This document shows positions 23,401 to 59,400 of a stretch of DNA of 64,000 nucleotides, piece by piece (position 1 is the first letter of the stretch; each line of letters opens with the position of its first letter). The stretch covers positions 34,385,524 through 34,449,523 of the forward strand of contig CAIIXF020000006.1 in assembly GCA_903813345.2 (NCBI GenBank), written 5' to 3'. The DNA comes from Owenia fusiformis. Its lineage: Eukaryota > Annelida > Polychaeta > Sabellida > Oweniidae. The notes under the pieces were generated by a model. That model was given only the letters and a program-made list of their open reading frames with translations, was not told the origin of the DNA and searched no databases. The position numbers and the translations under genes are program-made.

Positions 23401-26400
23401 CTGGGGTCTTTCTTTAAATCTCACCCAGTGCCTAAGGTTGCCAAACGTTTTGAGGGAAATGTAACTTCACTATGACATGTTTTTAACAAAATAAGGCTCT
23501 CATGTTCACCATAACAAATATTAAATCATTTACTGCTCATATATGTAGTTTTCAAATAGCACAGTAATTTAATATTTCTGGTTATATGCATTTTTCTGCA
23601 AAATGATATTTTGGGAGATCCTGACCGGGGGTTCGTTCGAACCCATCGAACCCCCGCTGCCTACGGCTATGCCATTAGTAGTGCACGCACATGCTAAACA
23701 AAGTACATGTTTTACATTACTTTCGATGGCGACACTACTATGAAAATGAATGTATCATGTAATACAAACAACTTCGCAATCTTTCAATGACATTGATAAA
23801 AACGTGATATATAAAGCTTGACAGATCGGAAATATTTTTGATAATTAATGTAAGCTTTGATGCGGTTCGTTTGAGCTGTTGTTGGTGTCAAATGAAATAT
23901 AAGGTTCTTATCAATACATAGGAGTGGACATTCTCTATAATTCTAAAGTAAGTCTTTATTTTGCCCTAAAACATTGAAAAAATGCAAAGTGGGCCTTTAA
24001 GGGTTTATGGATTGGGGATATAGATATAGACCGGGATATAGACCCTTTGTGGTATCGATTGCTTCAATGGACAAGCTCAACACACTATACAAAACTATAT
24101 TTGCATTGTTAGTACAATTGTAAGAATACAGGTGTAAAAGGGTAGGTGGTCCTATCAAATATTGGTCTTACTCTCTATTGATTTATATGGTGACCTAATT
24201 ACAATTATTTTCCTTATTATTTATACGCAGTCAGGGCCAGTAAGGGCCGTAAGGAAAGGGGACCATAATCCCCAGGGGACCATAATTTCTTTTACACCGG
24301 CATACATTATTCAGTACGAAGACATCTTACCCACTCCATAAGTAGGACGAAAAGTATTTGATGATTACTCGCATGATATGCTAATAGCTATTTTAACAAT
24401 AGAAAGATGGCAGTGTGGTTTGATCTTCATTGATCTCCGCAAACCATGCTGCCATCTTTCTGTTTACCCACAAACCTTATTCCATCATAGGATCTTCGTT
24501 GGTACAGTTCACGGTGTGGGACCCGGAAGCTGACAAGGTCACGGTGACCCTTCAAGGTCAAACCGCCAATGCCGTCTTCCATATTATGATGCATCCGCCC
24601 GAGACAGGCGTCTCCGCAAACCTGCAGAAGGGTGAACTACTTTTAAAGTCACCCTTAGATAGAGAGGTACAATACATTTTGTTTTACTATTGCTAAGGCC
24701 GTTAGTGGTGTCTATAAGTTGGTTTGAGGATGAAGAAACAGCATCAGCAAGTTCATAGAGATTCAATCTACTACTATCTCTCAAGTGAAACATTTCTGGG
24801 TAAATACATCATAATAATCAAATTTCGATCAAATGATTCGTATATACTCAGAATGGCAATATCATTTGAAATTGTGCGAATTGATATTATGTATGTTCTA
24901 CAGGGTGGTCCAAAAAGTGAACCGCTGCAACGGGCCATATTTCCCTTATTACTTGCAGGAATTGTTTTTTATTTTCACATGTTGTAGAGGAAGGTCAACA
25001 CCCTTCCACTGACATTTTAATAAGCTGCAGTTTTAATTAATATTTTCTCGCTTTGTTCAATCTTGAATCCCGCACATTATTGCTTAAAACTAGCATTCTA
25101 CCTTTGTTAGTTGCAAATGTCTTGTGATCCAAAGAAATGTTGTAAGCTTCCATAGACGATAACATTTTCCAGTGAAATCGCAAACATACCCCTATATGAT
25201 CTTGAAATGTCAATATCTTCATAAATCATGGTCCGATTCTAATGAAATATGGCTCAAACATTGACTATTAGATTTTCTTTTGATTTTTTAAAGATATTTG
25301 ATGAAGCGGCCCTCCTCTAACTGTTGGTGTAGGTAACATACCCCTGAACTGTTGAACGGTTAAAACTGCTTCAAAATGATAAACGAAAGTGTGAAATGTG
25401 TTTTCTGTTAAAAAAGTGTCCCTTTTGTCATATGGTAGGGTTTTAAACTTGTATCTCTAACCGAAAGCTGTTTAAGATCATCCGATGTGTTTCAACAATT
25501 TCTGTGAATCACATTGGTAAAACTTTGCAAAATATCTAATTTACACAGGTATGTTTGCTAAACTCTTGTGATTTCTTCAAAATTTAAGACTGAGATTAAA
25601 TTATGGCATCAGCCAAAAGTTTAGACCTTTCTCTACAACATGTGATAATATGAGTCTATTCATGCAAGTATTAAGGAAAATATAACCTGTTGCAGGGTTC
25701 ACTTTTTGGACCACCCTGTATTATTATATTTTTCAGATTATATCCCAGTATTCCTTAATTGTCACTGCTACAGATGGCATCAACACAGTGAGTTTACAAC
25801 TATTTTTAGTCTTCAATTAAGTTCACTTGTTTTTATGTCACCACCAGATGTGGTGACATATTGTTATAGTCTATATAGTCCCTAACTTTTTGTGGACAGT
25901 GTTCGGCGGTCGGCGATCTGCGGTCGGGTTTCCTCTCGGTCGGTGTCTGTAACAAATGGTAGGCGGGGACATGTTGCATATTATTATTGCCTTAGCTTGC
26001 TACTTTATACGTTGTATTGTCTTTACCTAATATGTAGAAGGTTAGATTTATGTTAAGATGGGGTAAACAAGGCCTTGATACAAGATTATTTTGGTATATC
26101 AAGAAACAATCATTGAAATGAACAGAAAAAGAGACATTATTATTGAATTTTTCCTCTTTCAGATCAACAAGTACCCAAACGTATATGTCGGAGATGTGAA
26201 TGACAACTATCCATTATTTCAAGGCTTACCTTACCAAGTTACTATATCAGAGGTGAGTAATCAAATGATTTTCTTACCAAGTTACTTTATCAGAGGTGAG
26301 TATTTCAAGGATTACCTTACCAAGTTACTTTATCAGAGGTGAATATTTTAAGGCTTACCTTATCAAGTTACTATATCAGAGGTGGGTATTTCAAGGATTA

Positions 26401-29400
26401 CCATACCGAGTTACTTTATCAGAGGTAAATATTTCAAGGCTTACCTTACTGAGTTACTATATCAGAGGTGAGTATTTCAAGGATTACCTTACCAAGTTAC
26501 TTTATCAGAGGTAAGTATTTCCTGGCTTACCTTATCGAGTTACTATATCAGAGGTGAGTATTTCAAGGATTACCTCCCCAAATTACTTTATCAGAGGTGA
26601 GTATTTCAAGGCTTACCTTACTGAGTTACTATATCAGAGGTGAGTATTTCAAGGATTACCCCCCCAAATTGCTTTATCAGAGGTGAGTATTTCAAGGCTT
26701 ACCTTACCAAGATACTATGTCAGAGGTGAGTATTTCAAGGATTACTTTACCAAGCTACTATATCAGAGGTGAGTATTTCAAGGATTACCTTATCGAGTTA
26801 CTATATCAGAGGTGAGTATTTCAAGGATTACCTTACCAAATTACTTTTTCAAAGGTGAGTGTTTCAAGGCTTACCTTATCAAGTTACTTCATCAGAGTTA
26901 AGTATTACAAGGATTACTTTACCAAGCTACTATATCAGAGGTGAATATTTCAAGTTTTACCTTCAAGTTACTATGTCAGAGGTGAGTATTTCAAGGCTTA
27001 CCTTATCAAGTTACTTCATCAGAGTTAAGTATTACAAGGATTACTTTACCAAGCTACTATATCAGAGGTGAATATTTCAAGGCTCAGCTTACCACATTAC
27101 TTTATACATTAGAGATCCACTCAAGAATATTAAATGTTATTAAAAACTTCTTTGCATCCGATGTTTTGCGGCACAGGGAGTCATGTAGATGCTTCTTGAC
27201 TTTAAGCTTTCGGGAATCTCTATGGTTGACATAATCGCTGTATAATGATGAAGTTTAAAATCAAGAAAAAATTCCACGTTAATGCAGTTTGGAAATAACT
27301 TCACCATTGTATAAGATGTGTATCATGAATATCAACAGTTCCTTTAGATATCAGGATGCCTGTACTTTTAGGACGCCCCACCTGGTACAACTGTACGGAC
27401 TGTTGCAGCGATTGATAAGGACGAGGGTATATATGGAACAATCACATATAGGTTCGCCAAAGGAGATGAGGTAAGTTGTAAATTCCGTGTCACGAATTAA
27501 TGAAGTGTATTGGTCCTCGATTGGAGGGGTTGGGGGATGTTAAACATTATTTCTTTTCATGTTGGATCATGGTTTTGGAATATATGGTCTACTTTTCTTG
27601 TGACAAGTTTACACCTACAGTGCTTTTCTTGGTAAGTTTCTTCACAGTTTTTGATATTTTCCCTTTGTGATTTGTGCTTAGATATTTACCAAGTTGCAAG
27701 GATTGATTATTTTGATTGACAGGGCAGTTATTTTAGATCACGTTGTACTATAATATAGGGAACATGCAAAACATGCACAGTTACAATATACACTTCCCTC
27801 CAATAGTTTGGCAATTAGTATTTCTTTTTTTGGATCACGAACTATTCTAAGTAAAGGAAAAATTCAAACATTAACAGTCTTTGATATGCAACCTAAACAT
27901 AACTTTCAGTTGCCAGACTTATGGAGGGGAGTGTATATTTTGAAGGGGACAAATGACCATGGCCACACCAAATTAAATCAATATAACACATTGAGAAACA
28001 CTAATTATTCATTTATAAAATTCCATTTTATTCAACAATTTCTTATAAAATAAATAATAAATACCTATATACATTACATTTTGAGAAAATAAATACATTC
28101 TTAAAGTATGTAGTGTTGCATCTCATAAATTGATCGTCAAAAATACTTCACCGCGTTTAGCTTCCTGCGCTTATTTATACTTTAGGTGTTTTAAATTACG
28201 AGTATGTGTCGATGAATGTGAGTTAAGGACACAAATCAATTTTCAAAAAATACATTTAAATAAATTCTATAGAGGTTAATTGTTGTACATACGTCTTGAA
28301 CTTGTAATTTCAGCATTTTACATTGAATATAAACATGAAAATTATAAACTTATTGAGAAATAATTTGCGTCTAGGTGGGTTATTCAAAGAAGAGCGACCC
28401 TAATTGAACCTTAAGCAAATAATTGATTTTAAAGATCAAATATGTCAAAATCAATCAAGAAACGGTGAAACTACTGAATCTTTGTTTAAACTACATATAC
28501 ACCTGAAGAGAACATGTGAATAAAATATATTTGATGTCACTAACTATACACTATACTAAGAAGTTAACCTTACCAAGTTATGGTTTTTATATGCTTTGAA
28601 AAATCTAGCCAAAATACTGCATATTTGAATCGAGTATTACTCTATAAGAGTTGCATAAGCTGTAGGTATCTTTAATATTGCACCAATATTTATATCATAC
28701 ATAACAACATTCTCAAAGATATCCATAAAACAACAAATGAGGATATCAATTTAATTGACTTGACTAATTTGTCTCAATGTACAATTTTTACTAGATCCAA
28801 AGATTTGTTATCAGATTGTATAAAACACCAGTGACTAACAGACTGCACCAAAGTATCACTGGAGTAAGATGAACTGGATTTCCCTTTTTCACTGTTAGTC
28901 TACTTGATGTGCCCCAACCGGTGTCCCACAACATCAGTACTGCGTGCATTTTAGTTGGAATCATGAATAGTACATATAGGAAACTGTATATGATGTAGAC
29001 TAAAAGACGTGGTTGTCTTGATAAAATGGTGGCCAATGTGGCCCTGAATGCACTCACTGCCACCATGACTACTAGCAATGTCCCCATGCTGTTAGGTGAT
29101 TTTGAGAACAGAAGTGTGATGATACTAGCCGAAACGAAAAACGGGTAAACGCCTTGATATAACAAGACCCACGTGAGGTAGAAATTCACCTTGAATGCCC
29201 ACCATAAGTTAAAGCCAAGTTCACGAAAAAATGACTTCGTCCATCGTGTCTGTTGAACAATCCATCTGATTAACTGAGTTGGTGTTTCCGTGGTACACGT
29301 TGCCAAATGTGTATATTTTACAGTCCTACCCAACGACAGGATTCTATTCGTCAGATGCCTGTCGTCACCGTACGTGCAAGGTACTCCAAGAAATGTTTGG

Positions 29401-32400
29401 AAATACCAGTCATGTAGTACAACTTTGACATCTCTAGTTCTATAAAGTCCTAAAGGTCCTGATACGCACGACACTACCCCGAATAAACTCTGTGCGGCTC
29501 GTTCAATGTTAAATGCGTACCAGTACTTGACTGCACTAAGGAAGGAGATGGGACTCTCATTTGCGTTAAAGATCCCAACGTTTCCCGTGACAGCTCCGAG
29601 TTCATCGTCAGACTCCAGCAGATTCGTCAAATGGGCAAGACAGTTTGGCTCCAACAGAGTATCAGAATCTGTCATCATAATATAATCAATTCCGACGTCT
29701 ATCAGTAGTCTCATGGCACAGTGCATTACCGAACGCTTCCCTTCGTGAAATTGTCTAATTGTGAGGACCTTGAAATTATGTTCGCAACCCTCTTCCCGTA
29801 TTGCGCCTGTGTATTCGCTGCCGTCCCCGAGAAACTCAGCAACTGGGTTGACAACCAACTCCTTCCAGGCCTCTTCTTCAATATTAGCAGCAAGATCGTC
29901 AAGAACAATTTGCATGGTGTTTTCATGCCCGAAAACTTCTGTAATTGTCTCGGCCATGTAAGCATCTTGTTCTTCGTGTCCATCCACCACCACGCATAAG
30001 ACGTAAATAGGACCGTAGCAGTCCCGAGCTGAGATGATACAATTGCGAAAATAATCGGGATCTTCTCTGTAGCCAACAATCTGTAAGGATAAACAGTGAA
30101 CGTTTTACAGGAAATGACATACTAGTATATTTACAAGACATACAGGTGCAAATTTAACAAAGTCTGATCGAGTATTTATAGTCTTCTATGATTTTTGAGG
30201 CTCATACTGGTATACAGCACAATGATAAATGCAGTTTCCCCAAAGGAGATAAGATGCAAATTCCGTGGTGATACGAGGGGACGAAACAACTGCATAAAAT
30301 GGATATCTGATTCATTCATTTCTTGAATTTGATTCTATAGAAAAGGTCACCATTCATTAAACTATTTTGAGGGTGTGATACTGTGATACATTAATATTAA
30401 GCTTACCTGTAACGCCACTTTCCCCTTGCATCTGTAGGAAGCCCTTTGTTCACCTTGTACTTTCAATCCCAGCCTGGTCATTTTAATCTTATTTGCAACT
30501 GCGAAAAACGACTCCGAAATGTAGTGACCCATGGTCACTACCCCGTATACTGTTAGTGCCCAGGGGAGGGTCCCCATACCGAAACGCACGAGTCTGAGAT
30601 TCAGGGCGTAGAATGCTGCCATGGCTCCAATAACCAATCCAACGCTACCCAAGATGTAAATCATCCTGTAGGCCATAGTTATTTTTGCAGCGTGTTTCTT
30701 CTTAACCTGTGGTCTGAAATGATGAAATAATACATTAGAAACAATCCGAAAAGAGTAGGACGTTAACTGGGATATTCATATCAGAAGATTGGGACTAGAA
30801 ATCGATTAATTGAACTTGTTATTTTCGGACAAGTGCCTTTAGTATATAGGCGCACTACTGTTACACACTTACAGATATTTTGTAATCTGGACCTTTTCGT
30901 CTGGATTATCTACTGTCTCCTCTTCCGTTTCATTTGGTTGCTTTGTCTCATCAATCTCCGCACCTTCTGTGATGCCTGGTAATAGCTCATTGGTCACAAT
31001 ACGTGCTGTCTCACCAGTACGTCTTGGTGGAAGGATCCTCTCTACGTCAATGACGACTTCACTGGATGGTGCCATGTCTGCTGGGCCTTCTCCAGGTGCT
31101 ATACTCTCTGCTGATAAAACCAATGGACTAAGTTTGAATGGTTTGCTTACTTCCTTCTTTCTTTTTGGCTTCTTTCGTTTTTCTTTTTTAGGTTGAGCCT
31201 CCTTGTTGTCATCTCCAGGAGTGGCTTCGTCTTCTGATGTGGTATAATATGAGGTATTTTCCCCGTCGGATCCTTCCTCCTCGTTTTCTTTCTTCGCCTT
31301 AACCTCATCCATAAACTCCTTTATGCGTTCCTTTGTTACATGGAGGTGGACATATAAATCACTAGTGGTATCTTCCTTTTCTGGAAGAGGATCGTCACTT
31401 ACTCCAAAGTCTACTCCATCTTCGATATCGTCATCAACGACTTGAGGTAATTGCTCTTTAGGTGTATGGACGTCTACAGAATCAAAACTGAGACTCTCTT
31501 CTTCTAGGAATTGAAATTGATCTGAAATTGTCAAAATTGAGGAAGTTTCTCCCTCAGATCTTGCAACAGGGTAAATGTTTCGTTCAATGTCATTCAAGAT
31601 CTCACTATTATTATCTCTAGACGATTCCGACGCTAATGAAAGACTATCTGTTGCATATTTTTTCTCTGTAAAATAACTATCCTTCGGGTAATCTATTTGA
31701 ACGTGAGATTCATCATTTCCGAATGTACCACTCGAACCACCGGCGATTTCGACATCATAAGATGCCTCGTTGAAGTCATCAAGTCTATTATCCAACGCAT
31801 TGTTATTAACCTTTTTAACATTGACTATTTGTTTATGTTGGCCACTAGATCTATCATAAGATGTCGATGGAACATTTTCCGTGCTTTCAATACTTGTAGA
31901 CAAGCCGCTATCACCAGACACCTTCTTAGACGAAGATCCAATACTGCCAAGCGAATCATTCTCATCGACGATATCAATTTTTACAGTGTTAATTCCACTA
32001 TCCGCACTACTAACGAATGAGTTTCGATTTCCAGCAATATTCTCCGGAACTCTGAGACCACTAATAAAAGAGAGATCTGGGTTTGATAAAGTTGTCCTTT
32101 CATGATATTCATCAGATTTATCAGTTTCTTTCCCTGGTAAAGTTTGTGATTTCGATAAGCGTTCTAAAGTATTATTTTTAGAAATGTATTGTGATTTTGG
32201 TCCATCGTCATGGATATCGTCATACGTATCGATACTCAATCCACTGTCTGAAAATTTATCCAGATACGTAATTGCGCTTTCAGAGGGTGGTAAATACATT
32301 GGATATTTTTTATACACTTTTTGGTTTTCCAAACTTGTTTTATTTTCTTTTTGAGCGTCAGGGAGGAAAGAGATTGGTGCAAAATTGGCAGCAGACACAA

Positions 32401-35400
32401 ATCCCTTAGAGTTATTTGTGGAGTTTGACTCGTGGACACCGGGTTGGGGGAACATGGCATTGGTGGATGTTGTAGAATCATTTGGCACAAATAGCGGATT
32501 AGTACGTTCTCCTTGGCTTGATAATGATAAGCCTGAATCGTAAGTGAAACTACCGGTGTCTTCGATGCTTCCATTCTTGCTATACACGCTGTCATTGGAT
32601 TCATCACCATTTCGTTGGTACTCACTGTTTATAACACCATTTCTCCTTTTTCGATTACTATTGGGTATTTGTAAATATCCATCTTGAGTGTGTCCCTTTA
32701 GCACCAGTCTCCTTAGAGATTCTTTGGGGTCAATCATTACTGGAGGTACAACATGTACTTCGGGTATGTCTGTTGTATAGCTATGTACACTGGGTATGTC
32801 TGATGAGTAGTTATACTCATCCTCATAATGATTGTCATTGGGGGTTGTGCCGTGTACTGGTAGCTTATCAACCCACACCTTAGTGGCCATTCGAGCAGAT
32901 GTCATTTACTTTTATCTGGAATAAAATTAAACTATGTAGATTTCAGAAAAATGAAGTTTTTTAATCTTAAAAAATCGACCAGAAACGTATGGACGTGAAA
33001 GTATGTGCAAGTTACGTATTTATTTACATTATTATACATGTGGAGGAATTTATTGAGGGGTGGACTGGTATATATTGACATTTCTGGTGATATATGGTCC
33101 CGGGTATATGGTTTGCATTAATGTCATCATGTATATCTACCGGTCAAGTTAATGAAATCATAGGTCAAGGTCAAAGTACAACTATATAACTATTTTAGTT
33201 TCCTTTTTCATACCATGTCCATGATATTTTGCATATATGTACAAAGAGTTTATAACAAATCGCAGTATTGATGGATTTTGAATGTAAAGTGTCCATCGTT
33301 ATCAACAATGTATTAAACTCGATCTGAATGGTTTGCGGACCTTGGTGACATTTGACTGGGTCATCATACTTACCGTATACTTTTATTAATGTACCGTTGA
33401 TGTGGCCGGATTGAAGATAATGATCATGTTTGTTAAATCTATTGGTCATATCTAACATAATATCATGGTCAGCAGTCTGAGCTTCTACAGCTGTATCATT
33501 GTCAAGGTTTATATAGCCATATATCATTTGATTTGAAACTTTTAAGTGGCATTATATATTTCAAACGAGCCTTATCAGTATCTGCAGACAGTCATATGCT
33601 TCATGTCAAGTCCGAGATGTACTATTGAAGATATTAACGCAAAAGTTAACATTGAGATTAATGATTTCTTTAAGTCAAATACTGCAAATCAATAAACTGA
33701 TAATATGGAGGATATTGAGAAACGAGGCCAATGACTTTTAAGTTTTTTTTGAACGAGGCTTGTATTTGGTTAAGTGAAGATTTAAGATATGCATTGCCAC
33801 TTTATGCCTTTGGTCAACTCCCATTGATAGTTTATTCTCGCGGTCACTTGTTCGAATTCTCTTGTTGTGGGGGCACTACGCAAACACTTAAACTTAATTA
33901 AAAAGTAATTTAATATTATTTACTTTGAATTTAGATATCTTGTCTTGAATTGAGTCAAAGAGCGGAATACTCATTTGTTTACAAGTTCACCACACCCCAT
34001 TGTTGAACTACTTAAATGAAAGCTAAGTAATAAAATAAACATATAAGTAGATGTTCATTGCTTCCTTAACAGAAAAAGTAATCATAACTTAAATAATGTA
34101 AAATATGATCGACAAACAGGATAGGTTACCAAGGCCAAAAATTCAACAAATCACTTCCACCGTGTGAAATCCGAAATTCTTGTAAAGCAAACGTGACGTG
34201 GATTCTAGTCATAAGTACAGTACATTAATTGAATAAACATTTCTATTCATGTTATTTCATCGTTTATTTAACATGATTTTTATTGAGTCACCAACCAATC
34301 CAAACGACTGCCACATTGTCCCATGCGGAATAATTAAAACCTCTTTAAAAGCAACTATCCCTTTTAAAGGTGTGTGCAGAATGATATAAGATTTCACATC
34401 ACGGTACTTTAGTAGCCAAAAATGATTTGAATCTTTAAAACTGGATGCCCGAACACCCCATTTTGAAAATGCGGTTTGAATGTGAGACACACTGACACAT
34501 TCTCTTAGTGTCAATTTTATACAAGGACACCACGAAAACTTCATTTGAATCTATTTATGATAAGATTAATAAACTTTTAATGGATCAAGATTCATTTTTT
34601 GGTTAATATATGATGTATCATGATGATATAATATGTATAAGTCACAGGTGGCACTAAAGTAAAACACTGTTTATTAAACAAGCATTTGTATTAATATTAT
34701 TCAATGGTTTATCAAAGCTTTTTAATCTAGATTTAATTTTGTGTTTTAAAGTAAAGACCAATAACCGATTATACTATGTATACACAACTTTCTTAAAAGC
34801 ACGCTGCATGAGATTATACGGTTAAATATGTAATTTTCTTATCGGGGGTCGTGAAGTGAATATATTCTTGCCTCAATAAAATGTCACATTCGGTATTTAC
34901 TAATTGCTCAACTGTGTATAAAAAAGAGTATAAAGTTCAACAGGCAAATTATACATACATGAAAAACAAACTATAACCATTATGTATAATGAGAAAAGAA
35001 CAAATGGCAACAATTGAAAAACAGATCAAATCCATAAGAGAACCACATATTTCTTCAAAAATTAAAATTCCCGCAAAGAAATGTAAATGTACATACCCTG
35101 AACACAGATTACTTAAGTTCTCGCTTAAAAAAACTAAGTCAAAATAATACAAAAGGTATAAATTTTCAAAGTCGTATACAATAATACTATTCCGTTTTGG
35201 AAGAAAGTTACGAGAGTTCAAATAAATTTGTTTCCTATCTTTGATATTAAGAAGATGAAACTGTTTGGTTTAATAGTGTTGTGCAATACAAAACCAATTA
35301 GAAAGTAATATAGAAGTTTATAAATGAATATAAAAATTTTAAGTATGGTAGGCTATGTAGTATATATAAACGTTTTCTATTTGTGCGACATGCAAATTAG

Positions 35401-50400: not shown

Positions 50401-53400
50401 TCATTGTCTTCTTATTCAGGTAGTACCATTGACAATGTAACATATTTCCACATAAACTCTACAACTGGCCATATCATCCCAACGAGGACGCTAGACAGAG
50501 AAAATATTGACTTCTACAACTTGACAATAAAGGTTTGTGCTGGATATTAAAGCGTTGTATTTACTTTTTGCTTTTTTCAAATATAATGTTTGGTAAGTGA
50601 TTCATATTTCTGAGGTCCAAATAGCCGATCCCAAAAAGATATGGGGTGATACAAGAACATCATATTTCCCTGATATTAAACAACCCGCGGAAGTGCCGAT
50701 AGTTAGCAATCAGGAGTCGATCTCCATTTGGATGGGAGGGGGGGTAGTTACTGGCTTAATAATCAGATAATAGACTTAGCGATGCTGATAGAAAAACTAT
50801 CAGTCGCCCATTTAATCACGACAGCATTATTGATGGTGATGACTGGATTCTACAGATTAAAAATGATACTTTGCCACCTGGATCATTGCAAAAAGTTGAA
50901 AATATGTTCTTTTAGTGATTTTATACCTTCTAGATAATTTTGAAGAAACTATTTTACTTTGTGTGAAAAGAATTTATGCCCAAGACTCAATGCGTCGTGT
51001 AATGACCATTCCTTCCATGCGTTGTTTCCTTAAATTAACCCTCCATGCTCCGCATCTCGTACACATTTTGGAAAGCAACACCCCCAAGGAATGGCCATTA
51101 CACATTGCACTGGGTTCAGGGCTAAAATCTTTACATATTATATTATGTCATATTTGTATTATATTATATTATATTATATTATATTGTATTATATTATATC
51201 ATATTATATAATATTATGAACCCCCCATGAAAAGCGCATCGTTTAAGTACCTATAATTAACTAATACTCTTGAAAAGTTGTGAAATCATTTTAGGCACTT
51301 GTACAGGGTAAAGTAACTAATAAATATTAGTCAATGTGGGGTAATTTATTATGAAGTTGAGATATTTCTTGGGATAATACAAAATAGTGTACCTAATGTG
51401 AGTAAATTCCCGATATTTGATTGGATCTGCAGTTATACATAATGGGACAATTCGAGATGTCCAAAAATAGAATGACGTATAAGTAAGCGGCATGCAAACA
51501 TTATATTCATGTTTTAGAGATAAATGGACATGAAATAACACAAGCTATTTTTTCATTGTCGTGACACACTCTCGAACTATTTTATTGGATATGGGTGTGG
51601 TAGATATATGTTTATCTTGACGTGCCCTCAACAATAGAACTTGATTTTTCTAAATGATCATGCTTTCACCTTAAAGATTGTGAAATTCAAGTATCAAAAC
51701 TATTTTTGCTCCATGACAAATCAAAAATAAATCCAGCATTTTTTTTATTATCACGTTTTCTGTCACAGAAAATCATTCGACCAATCAAATTCCGAGAGGC
51801 AAATGACGTACGCATTTACCCAGCCCCTCCTAAATGTTATGATATTTGCAAATAAACTTTGAATAGAATCAGGTCTTCCTAAAATCTCAAATGTTCCACG
51901 TCATTCAATCGGGCGTCAAATACAATTTCATGAGTTTTGATTATCTATTTAACGTATATTATTTAAAAAATAACATACATGTTCTACCCTATGCGTCACA
52001 TTGTAAATATTGCTACTAAGAAATTATGAGTGGAACAATAAAATAAATATTAACTTCTCTTCTTGTCGACGTGAACATTAATGCAGGTTTATGCTTTATT
52101 GAGTAGTATGAACAATCGATTAAAGCCATCCTTACATCAATCAAATACATGCATTTCAAATTTTGTATTTTGCCTTGTTTTCATAATTGGGCAACCCCTG
52201 TAACCGTTTATGTTTGAGAAAGATATGTGGCATTAGATACTATTAAAGGTGGCAAAAACTAATGTAAATTTGTTATTCTATAGATTCTGATCAAATCCAA
52301 GTAAAGAGAAGTATCTATTAAAGTAACGCTACAAGTAAATAAAACTGAATGAAGTTTTCAGAATCATTAAAGTTGTCAATATTTACAGTGGATGAACCTT
52401 CAAATCAATTATTAATACAATAAATCGATTCACTATAACAAAATCATTAAATCGAATCCTCTGAAACTAATCCTTATAAGAACGCATTTAATTCAAAATA
52501 CCCGAACGTTTTCTTCGAAATCGTTTCAACATTATTTCAAAAAGACAGGAATTAATAAAAAGAAGCAGCGTGGGCAGACCAAATTGACCCTAACCGAGCC
52601 TATATCATAATATTTGGTCTAAAACTCAAGTTGTAAAACTATTTGCTGAGTCAGAACTAACATTTTTTCTATATAATATTTGGGAAGATCAAATTCCACT
52701 CTGAATGCAATGAAATCACACCCTTGGTGAAGTAAATGTCACGCTACATCTCGATGCTTTTGATCTCATCCATTTCATTTCATTTTATTCCATTTCCATT
52801 TTATTTCTAATCCTTCAATTTTCAGTGTTAATTGGCAAATAATTTTAAAGCGGACGTTCTCTTTTCGTTTATTTTTATTTTGGACATTTCTGCATTAGAA
52901 TTTCAACTATTTCCCTATTTTTAAAAATGCGATTGTAAGGGAAACTTTACATTATTTTGACTGAATTGTTGTCAACCTTTCACACTTTCCATCCCTTCTC
53001 ATTCCTATAAAAATCTAGTAGATTAATTATTTTCTTATAGGCGTTCCAGACAAACCGTCCCAATGACCGAGTGACCTACTCAACTGTGTTAATAGTAGTT
53101 GATGACGTGAACGATCATTACCCTGTCTTAGAGCAAATGTTGTACAATATCAGTATCAAAGAAAACACACCTGAAAGTATTGAAGTACTTGTTATCAAGG
53201 CGTTTGATGGGGACTTGGTGAGTTTAAACAAAGATCTTTATGATGAATATGTATTTATACGCCCTAATAGAGCGGAGGTTCAAGGCCATTTAGGTATATT
53301 AATCTGCACTCAACATACAGCTTTGGTTTGGGTACCTTTTACAGACGGCTACTTCCACTCGTTGTATAGCGTCTAGCGTGTCAATAGTCTGCGTTTTTAA

Positions 53401-56400
53401 GATTGATTTCATCGATATACTATTTCATTCACAAAGTAAACTAATAAAAAGTATTATGTATCATTGTTTTTACTTCACTAAAAGTAAGTTTCTTACTTCA
53501 ATGGAGTTATTAAATTCAGAACAAATTCCATGCCCCAATTTCTTTAGATACAGTAGAATAACGCCGGTGACGTCAGTGTACTCATAAATGGGGTTTGTGA
53601 AATAAAACAATTGCAAAACCCCGTGCTAATATTTCACACGGTATTTTGTATAGTTTTTATAAAGCCATATGCTGTTGAAGTTAGTTTCTCTATGTATCGA
53701 CATTTCTGAAACCCAGATTAGATTAACATTGAAAAAATTAAAAAAGCCTCAAAGCTTCACGGAAGAAAATGTAGCCGAATTTAGACAGTCTTTTATCGAA
53801 TGGTGGCTATCTAAAGTAAACAGACGTGTCCTTTAGTTTACATATCCATGAAAGGTATATATCAAGTAGATCTGACTCTGATATCCTACATATCAACCAA
53901 CACCCATCAACACAAAATTGTTGATCAAATGTTCGCCCTTTGTTTGATTCTGATTGCATGAGCTCATAGTACCGATTGAACGTAATTATACTTTAAACCA
54001 CCTTCTAATGGAGATTTGAAGCATGAATTAACAGAGGCTTAAAAGAAATATCAATCATGATATGAACCAGGTCCTCTTTAATATATTACACCAGACTTAA
54101 GATGTCTACTGTCGGTTTTAGGGAAGCAATGCCAAACTTCAATTCAGCCTAAATGATTCCAGTGGTGCATTTAAAATAGACGAAGAGACAGGGCGGATAG
54201 TGGTGAAAAACAGCAACGTTTTGGACTACGAAACAGTAAAAAATCTGACACTTATCGTAAGTTTATTTATTGTGTGTCTTACCTAGACACTTGATGTTCT
54301 ATACAATTTGTAGGTCTTACCTGTGATTTGCTTAGTACTGTATTCTGTGTCTAAGGTCAGCTACAGTGTTAAAACGCAATTGCAAATCACTTATTTGATA
54401 CGGGGATACGCTATATGATGTATCCAGTTATAAAAATGGGATAATGGTCCCCTTCTGGATGGCCATTACATGCCACGAATAAAGTAATACTTCTTGTTAA
54501 GAGTTTAATTAGGGCCATTCAGGGCAGGATATAAAATCAACTCCTGGGTTATCAAGATCTTTAAACGTCAAAAATGTATATTTATATGTACTCTTAAGAG
54601 GGTAGTATTGTACTCCTTGCCAAAGGGTTTTAGTGTTATAAATTTATGGAACTGGAGACCAAATTCAGGACGAAGTTCCACCAACAGTCTGGATAAGTAG
54701 GTACGGAAATGAAAATCTCCATGCACAACTGAGGCCCATCTCTAATATATGGAGTCCCAAAATCAGAATGATACTATGAAGTTATATTGAAACTGTTGCG
54801 CGATCTTAAAAAACACAATAAACTACTATAAATGACATCTTTATTTTTATCAAGTTATTCATTGGATTTATAAATTTAACTCGGTACCACTCTAACGGTC
54901 CATTTGCAGTATGGCAAGTGATTTTAGACAGACATATCTTTCACCATGAGCACTTTCTGGGCATAAATACAGTTTTTTTTTTATTAAAACAATATGTTTT
55001 TTTTCAAGTGAAGTACCCATGATGATAAAAATTTCAATCGAACATTTCGAAAAATTATGAATAGGGACCCCATGTCAACAATTTTTTCAAAATGTTGAAC
55101 CTATTTACTAAAAAGAGGATCTAATTTTTCTGATTTTTATTGCATGAAAAGATTATTCAAAAAGGGGTCTAAAACTTCTTTTCTTCAATTTTCGATGATC
55201 AAAATTATGCTGAAAACAATGGATAGCACGAGTTTTCTCTATGGGAAAGTAACATGGGATATGTGGTTTTTAACTTTAACGCATTCCAATACCAATTCCC
55301 CTTTCAGGAGGTGTAAATATAGTGTAGAAGAAACTTTCGATATGGTTAAATCGAGAAAAAGAACATTTTCTAAAAGGTGCCCAGATGGGGTCCTAAACCA
55401 TAATGATTTGGATTTGGATTGATATTTTACTATCACAGGAACTTCACTTGAAAGAAAACATATTGTTTTATAAAAACCAATGTATTCATGGCCAGAAATT
55501 ACTCATGGTGAAAGATATGACCGTCTAAAACCTCTTGCCATACTGCACATGGACCTTTGTAGCTGCATCCTATATTGATTATGTTCATGAAGACTTCGAC
55601 ATGATTTCACAATAGGCGGGGGCATATTGTACACTTCATGTGAATTGTCTACGATTGTGTCAATGGATTTCGATCCAGGATCACCTAGCATTGGGCCTAG
55701 CATACGCGTTTAGCTGGTGACTATCGCTAAATTAAACAGATGACCACAATTTGTACATCAGATCAATAAATTCAATGTCAGTAATCTATGGCTCCTGAGA
55801 ACAAATATGTTAAAGAATAATTAAACCTCAGAAACCATATTTTAAGCACGACAGCAAATATCTTAAACCCGCGCTATATTCTATGAGAAAGAACATGGAT
55901 AACGCCACACCCGAAATAAAGTGTCTTGAAATGATGAGTAACAAAATTTCAATATTTACTTAATGAGGTTCATTGAAAAAGTTTATAGATAAGAACCTTT
56001 AGCAAAGAAAGTATAAGATTCCCTTTAATTTAAACCCCGATTTTGTTATTTGAATTGGTCAATCAAGATGACTAAAGATATTTTGCTTTCACATCCCGAA
56101 TTTTGCTTTCACATTCCGACTGTTGCTTTTCACATCCCAAATTTTGCTTTCACTTCCCGACTGTTGCCTTCAAATCCTGACAGTTGCTTTCACATTCAGA
56201 CTGTTGCTTTCACATCCCGAATTTTGCTTTCACATCCCGACTGTTGCTTTCACATCCTGACAGTTGCTTTCACATTCCGACTGTTGCTTTCACATCCCGA
56301 ATTTTGCTTTCACATCCCGACTGTTGCTTTCACATCCCGAATTTTTCTTTCACTTCCCCACTATTGCTTTCAAATCCTGACAGTTGCTTTCACATTCCGA

Positions 56401-59400
56401 CTGTTGCTTTCACATCCCGAATTTTGCTTTCACATCCCGACTGTTGCTTTCACATCCCGAATTTTTCTTTCACTTCCCCACTATTGCTTTCACATCCTGA
56501 CAGTTGCTTTCACATCCCGACTGTTTTTTCACATCCCTAATGTTGTTTTCACATCCTTTATTTTCATATTTTGATCCTTGATCACAATTTTAGGACAATG
56601 AAGATTCTTTTAAATCGGCAAACATAAACAGACTTTGGTGAATGATTCGAAAGAGAACTTCTAGATTACGGAGATACGTACAGAGCGAAGTGTACCATTA
56701 CATTTTGTTAAACCATTTCCGAAATCTAACAAGCTACAAATCCAACTCTTCATAGAAATAACCGATTTTAAATGGAGCGAGTGTTGCATAACTCCAAAAT
56801 AACTGAATGAAATCAAATCTGGTAAATAAAAACATAAAATAAAAAACATGTTGTTAAATCAAGCCCCGTGTTCTTTTAGGTCCAAGCTAAAGAGAATCAG
56901 AGTGCAGAGTTGTTTGAGAGTGAGGAGGCGGTTATTCTGGTGAATATTATTGACCAAGATGAAACTGAGGACAACTGGTATTACGTTGGTAAGAAACTAT
57001 ATATATTTTATTACACAATTCCATTTCAATTTTAGCACATACAATACATCCATATTATATTAATAAAGACTTATATACTTGTATTACATACCTAGCGAAG
57101 CATTTGTATGGAAGTCAATGGAGCTGAAGGAGCTCGGGCTATATTAACGTCAGACCTCAGGCATATATTCAATGATAGGGACATAATGGCTAAATATTAA
57201 TTAATTAATTATATTATATTTTATCCGATAGATACTAAATATATATGGGGATAACGACACAATTTAATTTTGGTATTCGCCACTAAAATCGTATCTGCAA
57301 AATTGATCTGCAACAATATAATTCCAAGATTATTTGCTCAGTAAAATTGACTTAAATTTTTTCATGCAATCATATATGTAAACATAAGTTCACAGAAAAT
57401 AAAATGGAAAATTAGAAAGAATTAGATAACAACAACTTTTGGGTCAAATTATTATTACAAGTCTATACAAAATAGCGACCAACGGATAATTGTGATATCC
57501 TATGATTTTCTCGGGCAATCATTTTTATCCTCTCTTGGATATCGCCGATCTCCACTCATTCGCTGTGCTCACTCGTCGAGATGGGCCCTATCCACTCAAA
57601 GATAAAAATGGTATCCCTCAAAAAACATCATATCCTCTATATATTATTGTATATTATGTTATTTTATATTACATTATATCATATCATATTATCTTATATT
57701 ATAGTATATTATATAATATAATAGTATATTACATTGAATATTGCATAATATCATATTGTATTTTATTACATTTAGTATTATTTGAAATATATGTTATATT
57801 TGATGAATTATATTACATAGACATATGTCATCTAGCTTTGCAATGTTAAATTACGTTTATTTGATAAATATTGCAAAACTAAATTAATATTGCAGCATCG
57901 ATACTATTGATATCATCTAATATAAATCAACACTATAAAAGTATCAAATCTAGAGACTATTTTATGTATGGGCCTATGGTTAATTTGTAGTAATCTCTAT
58001 TTCAGTTATTGTTGTCACGGCATCTCTACTTGGAACTGCGTTGTTTGTGGTCGCCTTGACAATCGTTTGTGCCGTCATAACAACCAAGAACAAAGAAAGT
58101 AAGGCCAATGTTTTAAAACATCCATAATAACAGTCTCACTACACATGAAATACAAACTTGGCATTCCAATCCCAAGTCAGTGAACCTTTGGTCAACTTAA
58201 CAATAATTTGTTGAAAATATGGTTACTTAATTATGAATATGTTTTACAGGTAAGATCTAACAGAAACTTAGGAAGCTATTATTGTAAAGAACAGCATGCT
58301 TAAATCTGATGTATTTGGAAATGTTTTTATAACTTTTTTCGAATTCTCTCATTGCAAATTATATTTATGTAACTTTTATTAATTAAAAATTATTTTAATT
58401 GCGATATATATAAACTATCCATCAATTAGTCAACTAGAATGTGTCAATGTTTTAATTCTAAATGCCAGTAAATTCTTTAATATTACATAATTCTAAACTG
58501 CATCTGTGCTTGGGGGTTGACATACCTTGATTGATTTGACTCAAGTCACGTGAAAATGCGCAATTTTATTACAGGCAAAATGATATAAATATCATGCCCT
58601 CTGACTACAATTATTGTATTGTACCTTTATTTCCCCAAATACTGAATAGCCCAATATTTTAGAAATAATAAACAGTTTTATACAATATATAAAATTTGAA
58701 CATTTTCACAAGTGGATCCAGAACATCAGAATTTGAGAATTGGAGCCTACACTTAAATAAAAAACTTAATATGTAAACTAATAATATAGACTGCACTTGT
58801 TAAGTCCCGAGAGGACCTCGGTTCAACTTTGCACCCCAATGGGTTCCACCCAGTATCAATTTGACTTGCTCCATCACAGACGGTAGCACAGGTTAGATTA
58901 TGTCCAACATATCAATGTCAATTAACAATTAATCAATAATTCTCTTTAAAATTTTTGAATCATTCGTCTGGTATTGGTTCAGTTACCAAAGTACTATGTT
59001 ATCCTACAAGTGAAATATATGTAAAGTAAATGGCATGACGTTTGACAGATCAACCTCAGCGAAATATATTTTAAAATGATAATGTCAAAAAATCAAATTA
59101 ATTGAACAACAAAGTAATTAATTAGATATATTGATGACCTCTTGCGTTAAACTGATTCAGAAATAAATTATGTTTGACTTATGTATGGAATGACAATTTT
59201 TACTTTTTGAAACGTAAGACGCCCTACTATATGTTTAACTATGGTTGACGACGTGTTTGTATGTACTATTAGATATTGTATGTACTATTAAATATTGCAT
59301 TAGTACTATTAACTCATTATATAATTATATACTGGATATTGGCCACGTTACCAAAAATAGTACATTCGTTATCATATCATAACACCAAGATTATAACCTG

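Follow-up and report, generated by a model that had tools for sequence, protein, structure and literature searches.

How is one 5' splice site chosen when the right one is followed by a long row of its own near-copies? Selection among several suitable sites is an old problem, and most work on it has used two or three engineered sites. A 64,000-nucleotide stretch of the genome of the annelid Owenia fusiformis (the window, G000:C6:34385524-34449523, of a genome of 498,259,871 bases in 525 contigs) contains a cadherin gene in which the end of one exon, together with its 5' splice site, is repeated in tandem into the following intron. In such a row of near-identical donors, 38 bases of exon context are common to all, position is the main difference between them and one choice makes the protein. 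We conclude that the array is very probably a near-neutral "mirage", a minisatellite that spans an exon-intron boundary and carries the splice signal within its units. The exon's own acceptor and the nearest donor would be paired first, and the downstream copies, although many of them pair with U1 equally well, would be left in the intron.

The repeated exon end

Tandem Repeats Finder (TRF) called the array with a period of 43, 82% matches and 20.8 copies, in agreement with the approximately 20 copies reported in the first-pass annotation, which had been made from the letters of the window. The start of the array, 26215, was also as annotated there, but the end was not: TRF places it at 27105, about 20 bases beyond the 27085 given previously. 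Unit 1 is exactly the final 38 bases of cadherin exon C plus GTGAG, which bears out the proposal that the exon-intron junction is the source of the array. Exon C itself begins with CTTTCAG|ATC at 26163 and ends with ATATCAGAG|GTGAGT after 26252.

The same annotation counted about 18 near-identical GAG|GTGAGT donors. This holds for the GT dinucleotide, which is retained at 18 of 20 donor positions, but not for the full word, which is exact at only 11. The other nine positions read GTGAAT (three), TTAAGT (two, without GT), GTGGGT, GTAAAT, GTAAGT and AAG|GTGAGT (one each). Mean pairwise identity among the 20 aligned units was 85%, and the exon copy shared a mean of 90% identity with the remaining 19. 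Units two apart are more alike than adjacent units (0.869 vs 0.828), so the array probably grew in part as 86-bp dimers. In the single haplotype available, unit 2 agrees with the consensus at 36 of 43 positions, with six of the seven mismatches falling within its first 16 bases, and the partial final unit is likewise diverged. When the same genome was searched with the array, the window itself was the one match and no second match was reported.

Consequences of using each donor

The first donor alone preserves the reading frame and adds no stop (Table 1). As the first-pass annotation had stated, splicing at donors 2 and 3 would shift the frame, and any extension to donors 4-20 would include the TGA at 26340-26342. 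We rejected a coding tandem repeat for the cadherin array: its period is not divisible by 3, and the reading frame of the exon meets a stop at 26340.

Pairing energies were scored against the 11-base 5' end of U1. Donor 1 had a value of -12.4 kcal/mol. Twelve of the 19 downstream copies were better than this and seven were weaker; ten of the better copies had -12.7 kcal/mol, with U replacing A at +8. Were strength decisive, the choice would follow this score, for example to the GTAAGTAT copy at 26511 or the GTGAGTAT copies. With 12 of 19 copies better against U1, the array is not just a strong site followed by weak relics.

Protein conservation through the first donor

Searched singly, the cadherin exons had no Pfam match, and the PDB matches of exon A by itself were weak and odd. 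When exons B-D were joined with part of exon A, the product matched Pfam Cadherin with an E value of 1.2e-14. The end of exon C joined to exon D through donor 1 aligned residues 5-43 to profile positions 1-39 without a gap (E 5.7e-7), the junction lying between residues 11 and 12. Such a gapless match of equal length across the junction indicates that use of donor 1 assembles a normal cadherin repeat. When Pfam Cadherin was searched across the genome, 150 of 349 candidates were scored and none was listed in the window, where the exons are short; we gave this result no weight.

Donor arrays at other genes

Three genome-wide pattern searches gave at least 30 further donor-word arrays, making a set of 31 with the cadherin array. 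The first pattern, three AGGTRAGT words, occurred at 617 places, with at least six arrays among the places listed (C1). The second and stricter pattern, GAGGTGAGT, occurred at 68 places, all of them listed, with 11 arrays including the cadherin array. The third, AAGGTRAGT, occurred at 180 places, with at least 15 additional arrays among those listed. At one locus (L021) the three words are present with no TRF array. Units at the other loci are unrelated in sequence to the cadherin unit. Of 30 arrays, 6 have a period divisible by 3, which shows no preference for keeping the frame. In each of the 13 arrays examined for U1 pairing, three of which lie outside the ten confirmed below, one or more downstream copies equal donor 1 in pairing; at L003 there are about 40 downstream AGGT sites.

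Twenty-two of the 31 arrays were tested with Pfam or PDB. The other nine (L001, L004, L007, L014, L016, L021, L024, L025 and L030) are mostly without a clear exon by eye. A homology-confirmed coding exon (Pfam above cut-off or PDB) ends at the first donor in ten of the 31 arrays (Table 1). L013 and L026 had weak matches below the cut-offs, to WD-repeat and MIR respectively, and ten tested loci (L002, L005, L006, L011, L017, L018, L019, L022, L023 and L029) gave no match or one below cut-off, although in its best frame each of these has 30 open codons at the first donor.

The next exon was sought at all ten confirmed loci. Joining through donor 1 carried the match into it at eight of these, namely the cadherin locus, L003, L008, L009, L010, L012, L015 and L027. 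In five of the eight the matched lengths are equal and without gaps: cadherin with 39 residues, Rieske_4 with 61, AAA_2 with 101, PX with 52 and SRP72 with 115 (E 1.2e-35 for SRP72). The first-pass annotation had proposed that accurate expression needs the first of many equal donors and that the array could be a natural test of donor choice. Both proposals are supported here: 12 of the 19 downstream copies match or exceed donor 1 in pairing with U1, yet the protein continues from donor 1, and a gapless donor-1 match recurs at four other array exons.

Acceptor-like sequences are also repeated at two of these loci. At L010:2233-2469, a 77-bp sequence with TTACAG|GGCAGACTG stands in three tandem copies at the start of the exon that follows the donor array. 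Of the three TTACAG|GG sites, the last alone fits the conserved protein, and the best pyrimidine tract, judged by eye, belongs to the first. We regard this repeat as a putative 3'-side mirage on the same intron as the donor array. At L009:1399-1476 (reverse-complement orientation), three copies of the acceptor-like GTATTTCAGATTRCACATCC, spaced 29 bp apart, precede the DENND11-like exon.

One locus behaves differently from the cadherin array in its reading frame. At L002:2571-3073, about 15 copies of a 33-bp unit lie at a probable exon end, and 160 codons remain open beyond donor 1, with VSPNAHSFDTE repeats and 11 donors passed. L002 is a candidate for usable alternative donors or for a coding repeat.

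Explanations for the array

We suggest that tandem duplication of a segment covering both the exon end and the 5' splice site produced the minisatellite. The growth would have gone into the intron because the protein is unchanged only with the first donor. The spliceosome would pair the upstream acceptor with the nearest donor, through exon definition and because the first donor is transcribed first, and copies equal in U1 pairing would be skipped, with little use of later donors. An array of this kind would be near neutral, its copy number drifting via slippage or unequal exchange.

The first-pass annotation had also raised a switch that makes unproductive transcripts. In a regulated form of it, transcripts with a frameshift or a stop would arise from later donors and be degraded, which would tune the cadherin level. 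That every donor but the first is unproductive and that 12 of 19 copies are at least as strong against U1 would suit this idea, which we nevertheless consider very unlikely from the tests made of the copies. The eight donor columns of the 19 downstream units vary as much as the rest, with 12 of 152 mismatch cells compared with 64 of 665 elsewhere (Fisher p 0.64). There is no codon-position bias in units 3-20, where differences from the exon copy number 18/216, 18/233 and 25/233 at positions 1, 2 and 3 (p 0.49). The predicted RNA fold is ordinary when compared with dinucleotide shuffles (z -0.14, -1.66 and -0.37 with 100 shuffles each, and -0.18 with 20 shuffles). In addition, unrelated conserved genes, with matches to AAA_2, SRP72, Rieske, PX, RhoGAP and DENND11, share the arrangement, which suggests tolerance over a dedicated switch.

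It is even less probable that the copies serve as U1 sponges or intronic enhancers that aid recognition of donor 1, the array being kept for a benefit to splicing. A row of many U1-complementary sites does lie just 3' of the exon, but the same counts (12/152 vs 64/665) give no extra conservation of the donor columns, and seven of the 19 copies are weaker, two of them being without GT. An assembly artefact, or too high a copy number assembled for a genuine but short tandem repeat, is the least probable of all: misassembly is common in tandem arrays, but the units differ (mean pairwise identity 0.85) and alternate as 86-bp dimers, and similar arrays with unrelated units occur at other loci.

The unit also contains CTTACCT, the complement of AGGTGAG. 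Hairpins in which a U1 mimic hides the donors were considered and rejected, since folding energies are ordinary against shuffles and donor 1 ranks only 4/20 in openness.

Do exon ends attract arrays?

In a stronger form of the exon-proximal reading, real exon boundaries attract or retain arrays above other donor-like words. A coding score was used for comparison. Among the arrays, 19 of 30 score at least 2 and 12 of 30 at least 4; among 186 non-coding AGGT sites of the window, the corresponding numbers are 9 and 0. Isolated donor words taken genome-wide, after repeat families had been removed by eye, reach these levels in 18 of 40 and 12 of 40 cases (p 0.15 and 0.45 vs arrays). The score misses exons that homology confirms, giving 1.1 for cadherin, 0.0 for L003, -2.6 for L009 and -2.8 for L015.

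Several points weigh against a near-neutral array that is simply passed over. Isolated words from the start of C1 score at least 2 in 12 of 40 cases and at least 4 in 6 of 40, which differs from the arrays (p 0.008 and 0.027), and with both control sets pooled the values are p 0.019 and 0.092. As significance changes with the control set, a preference of arrays for real donors is no more than possible, and plain neutrality would not predict one. We infer the use of donor 1 from protein conservation in the genomic sequence, with which minor use of other donors would be compatible. The matched lengths are unequal at three of the eight joined loci (RhoGAP 70 vs 59, DENND11 74 vs 81 and I-set 80 vs 83), and no next exon was recognised in the fetched DNA at L020 and L028. 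The predicted folds leave donor 1 slightly more accessible than most of the copies, and the copy number of the array is read from one assembly. Plain tolerance is nevertheless enough to explain the observations.

A first coding classifier, which required an acceptor, was dropped as too strict, with 1 of 40 isolated sites above 5. From the similar numbers of places for the array word and a reversed control word (617 vs 523) nothing was drawn, because the places are not independent and the control word lies within other repeats. The single-word counts of 33,163 vs 47,644 gave no estimate of the fraction of true donors. Three genome-wide repeat families hold AGGTRAGT in a fixed context (e.g. AGGTAAGTAGGAATTGTTGAAAGTATATTTGAT) and account, by eye, for 48 of 97 sampled places.

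A genome with mirages at many genes might supply natural experiments for an exon-proximal rule, by which the nearest donor is used whatever the copy number or U1 strength, and at least once (L010) the acceptor side follows too; we put this forward tentatively, as somewhat short of an even chance. Transcripts of the array loci could separate position from strength directly.

Comparison with known boundary repeats

In the available passages of two papers on amphioxus, mirages are described for Adh3, for the globins BflGb6 and BflGb9 and for TnC, with similar repeats in PGBD5; unit sizes of 10-160 bp are given, and splicing is reportedly left undisturbed (PMC3087553, PMC3902484). As far as those passages describe mirages, the cadherin array resembles them: it starts 38 bases inside a coding exon and enters the intron, the splice signal lies within its units (GT kept in 18/20, exact GAG|GTGAGT in 11/20), and the 43-bp unit is of minisatellite size. 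It is unlike the described BflGb6 haplotypes, which have 3 and 6 copies, in having about 20, with more at other Owenia loci, and unlike the amphioxus cases described there in its annelid host and in the many loci of one genome found by pattern search. In the papers found, mirages are reported from amphioxus; with the present set they extend to many loci of one annelid, and they may arise quite generally as a side effect of minisatellites growing at exon ends.

By its title, a 1995 report by Turri et al. is said to concern a minisatellite that gives multiple splice donor sites in a human interferon-induced transcript, reportedly 6-16/IFI6. The repeats of that human gene are thus said to provide donors, whereas later donors of the cadherin array would, judged by sequence only, cause a frameshift (2-3) or a stop (4-20), and we would not expect them to be used productively. 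Human genes in segmental duplications have internal tandem repeats at exon-intron boundaries, with a mean unit of 30 bp and a mean of 4 repeats; according to the available part of that paper, they occur in recent paralogs, change splicing and form new introns (PMC2812944). The cadherin array is like these repeats, as described in that part, in being a minisatellite expansion at an exon-intron boundary, and unlike them in that its exon is conserved and its junction apparently unchanged.

Features of the window

Table 1. Cadherin gene and donor array (window positions), and arrays whose first donor ends a homology-confirmed exon.
Feature	Position	Strand	Description	Evidence
Cadherin exon A	24424..24666	+	Upstream; ends GAG|GTACAA; 24424 is the open-frame start only, 5' boundary unfixed	Open frame ending ...LLLKSPLDRE
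Cadherin exon B	25737..25787	+	51 nt, phase 0-0, IISQYSLIVTATDGINT; acceptor TTTTTCAG, donor ACA|GTGAGT	Frame continues
Cadherin exon C	26163..26252	+	90 nt, phase 0-0, carries DVNDN; end repeated in array	Joined C+D Cadherin match
Tandem array	26215..27105	+	43-bp unit, 20.8 copies; 38 exonic bases + GTGAG; one 41-bp unit at 26946	TRF, unit-by-unit comparison
Donor 1	26253..26258	+	GAG|GTGAGT; sole donor keeping the reading frame without a stop	
Intron C-D	26253..27371	+	1119 nt; array is 853 nt (76%) of intron	
Downstream donor copies	26296..27073	+	19 copies, 17 with GT	
TGA in exon frame	26340..26342	+	Inside every extension to donors 4-20	
Cadherin exon D	27372..27470	+	99 nt, DAPPGTTVRTVAAIDKDEGIYGTITYRFAKGDE, phase 0 at both ends, donor GAG|GTAAGT	In-frame join from exon C
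Cadherin array			Confirmed exon end	Pfam Cadherin
L003			Confirmed exon end	Rieske_4
L008			Confirmed exon end	RhoGAP
L009			Confirmed exon end	DENND11
L010			Confirmed exon end, CLPB-like	AAA_2
L012			Confirmed exon end	SRP72 (PDB)
L015			Confirmed exon end	PX
L020			Confirmed exon end	UDP-glucose dehydrogenase, barely above cut-off
L027			Confirmed exon end	I-set
L028			Confirmed exon end	NCS-1-like (PDB)

Two frames of the minus strand occupy, in antisense orientation, the space between cadherin exons A-D and a frame of DVNDH type at 53041-53376, for which there is no Pfam match. The frame at 28791-30104 gave hits to the models for glycosyltransferase family 2 (E 1.1e-13) and chitin synthase (E 3.8e-13), and the longer one, at 30869-32905, has no Pfam match. 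From this placement, a glycosyltransferase/chitin synthase-like gene may be nested in the cadherin gene. A second long minisatellite of the window, at 56083-56556, consists of 23.7 copies of a 20-bp unit, with two frames open.

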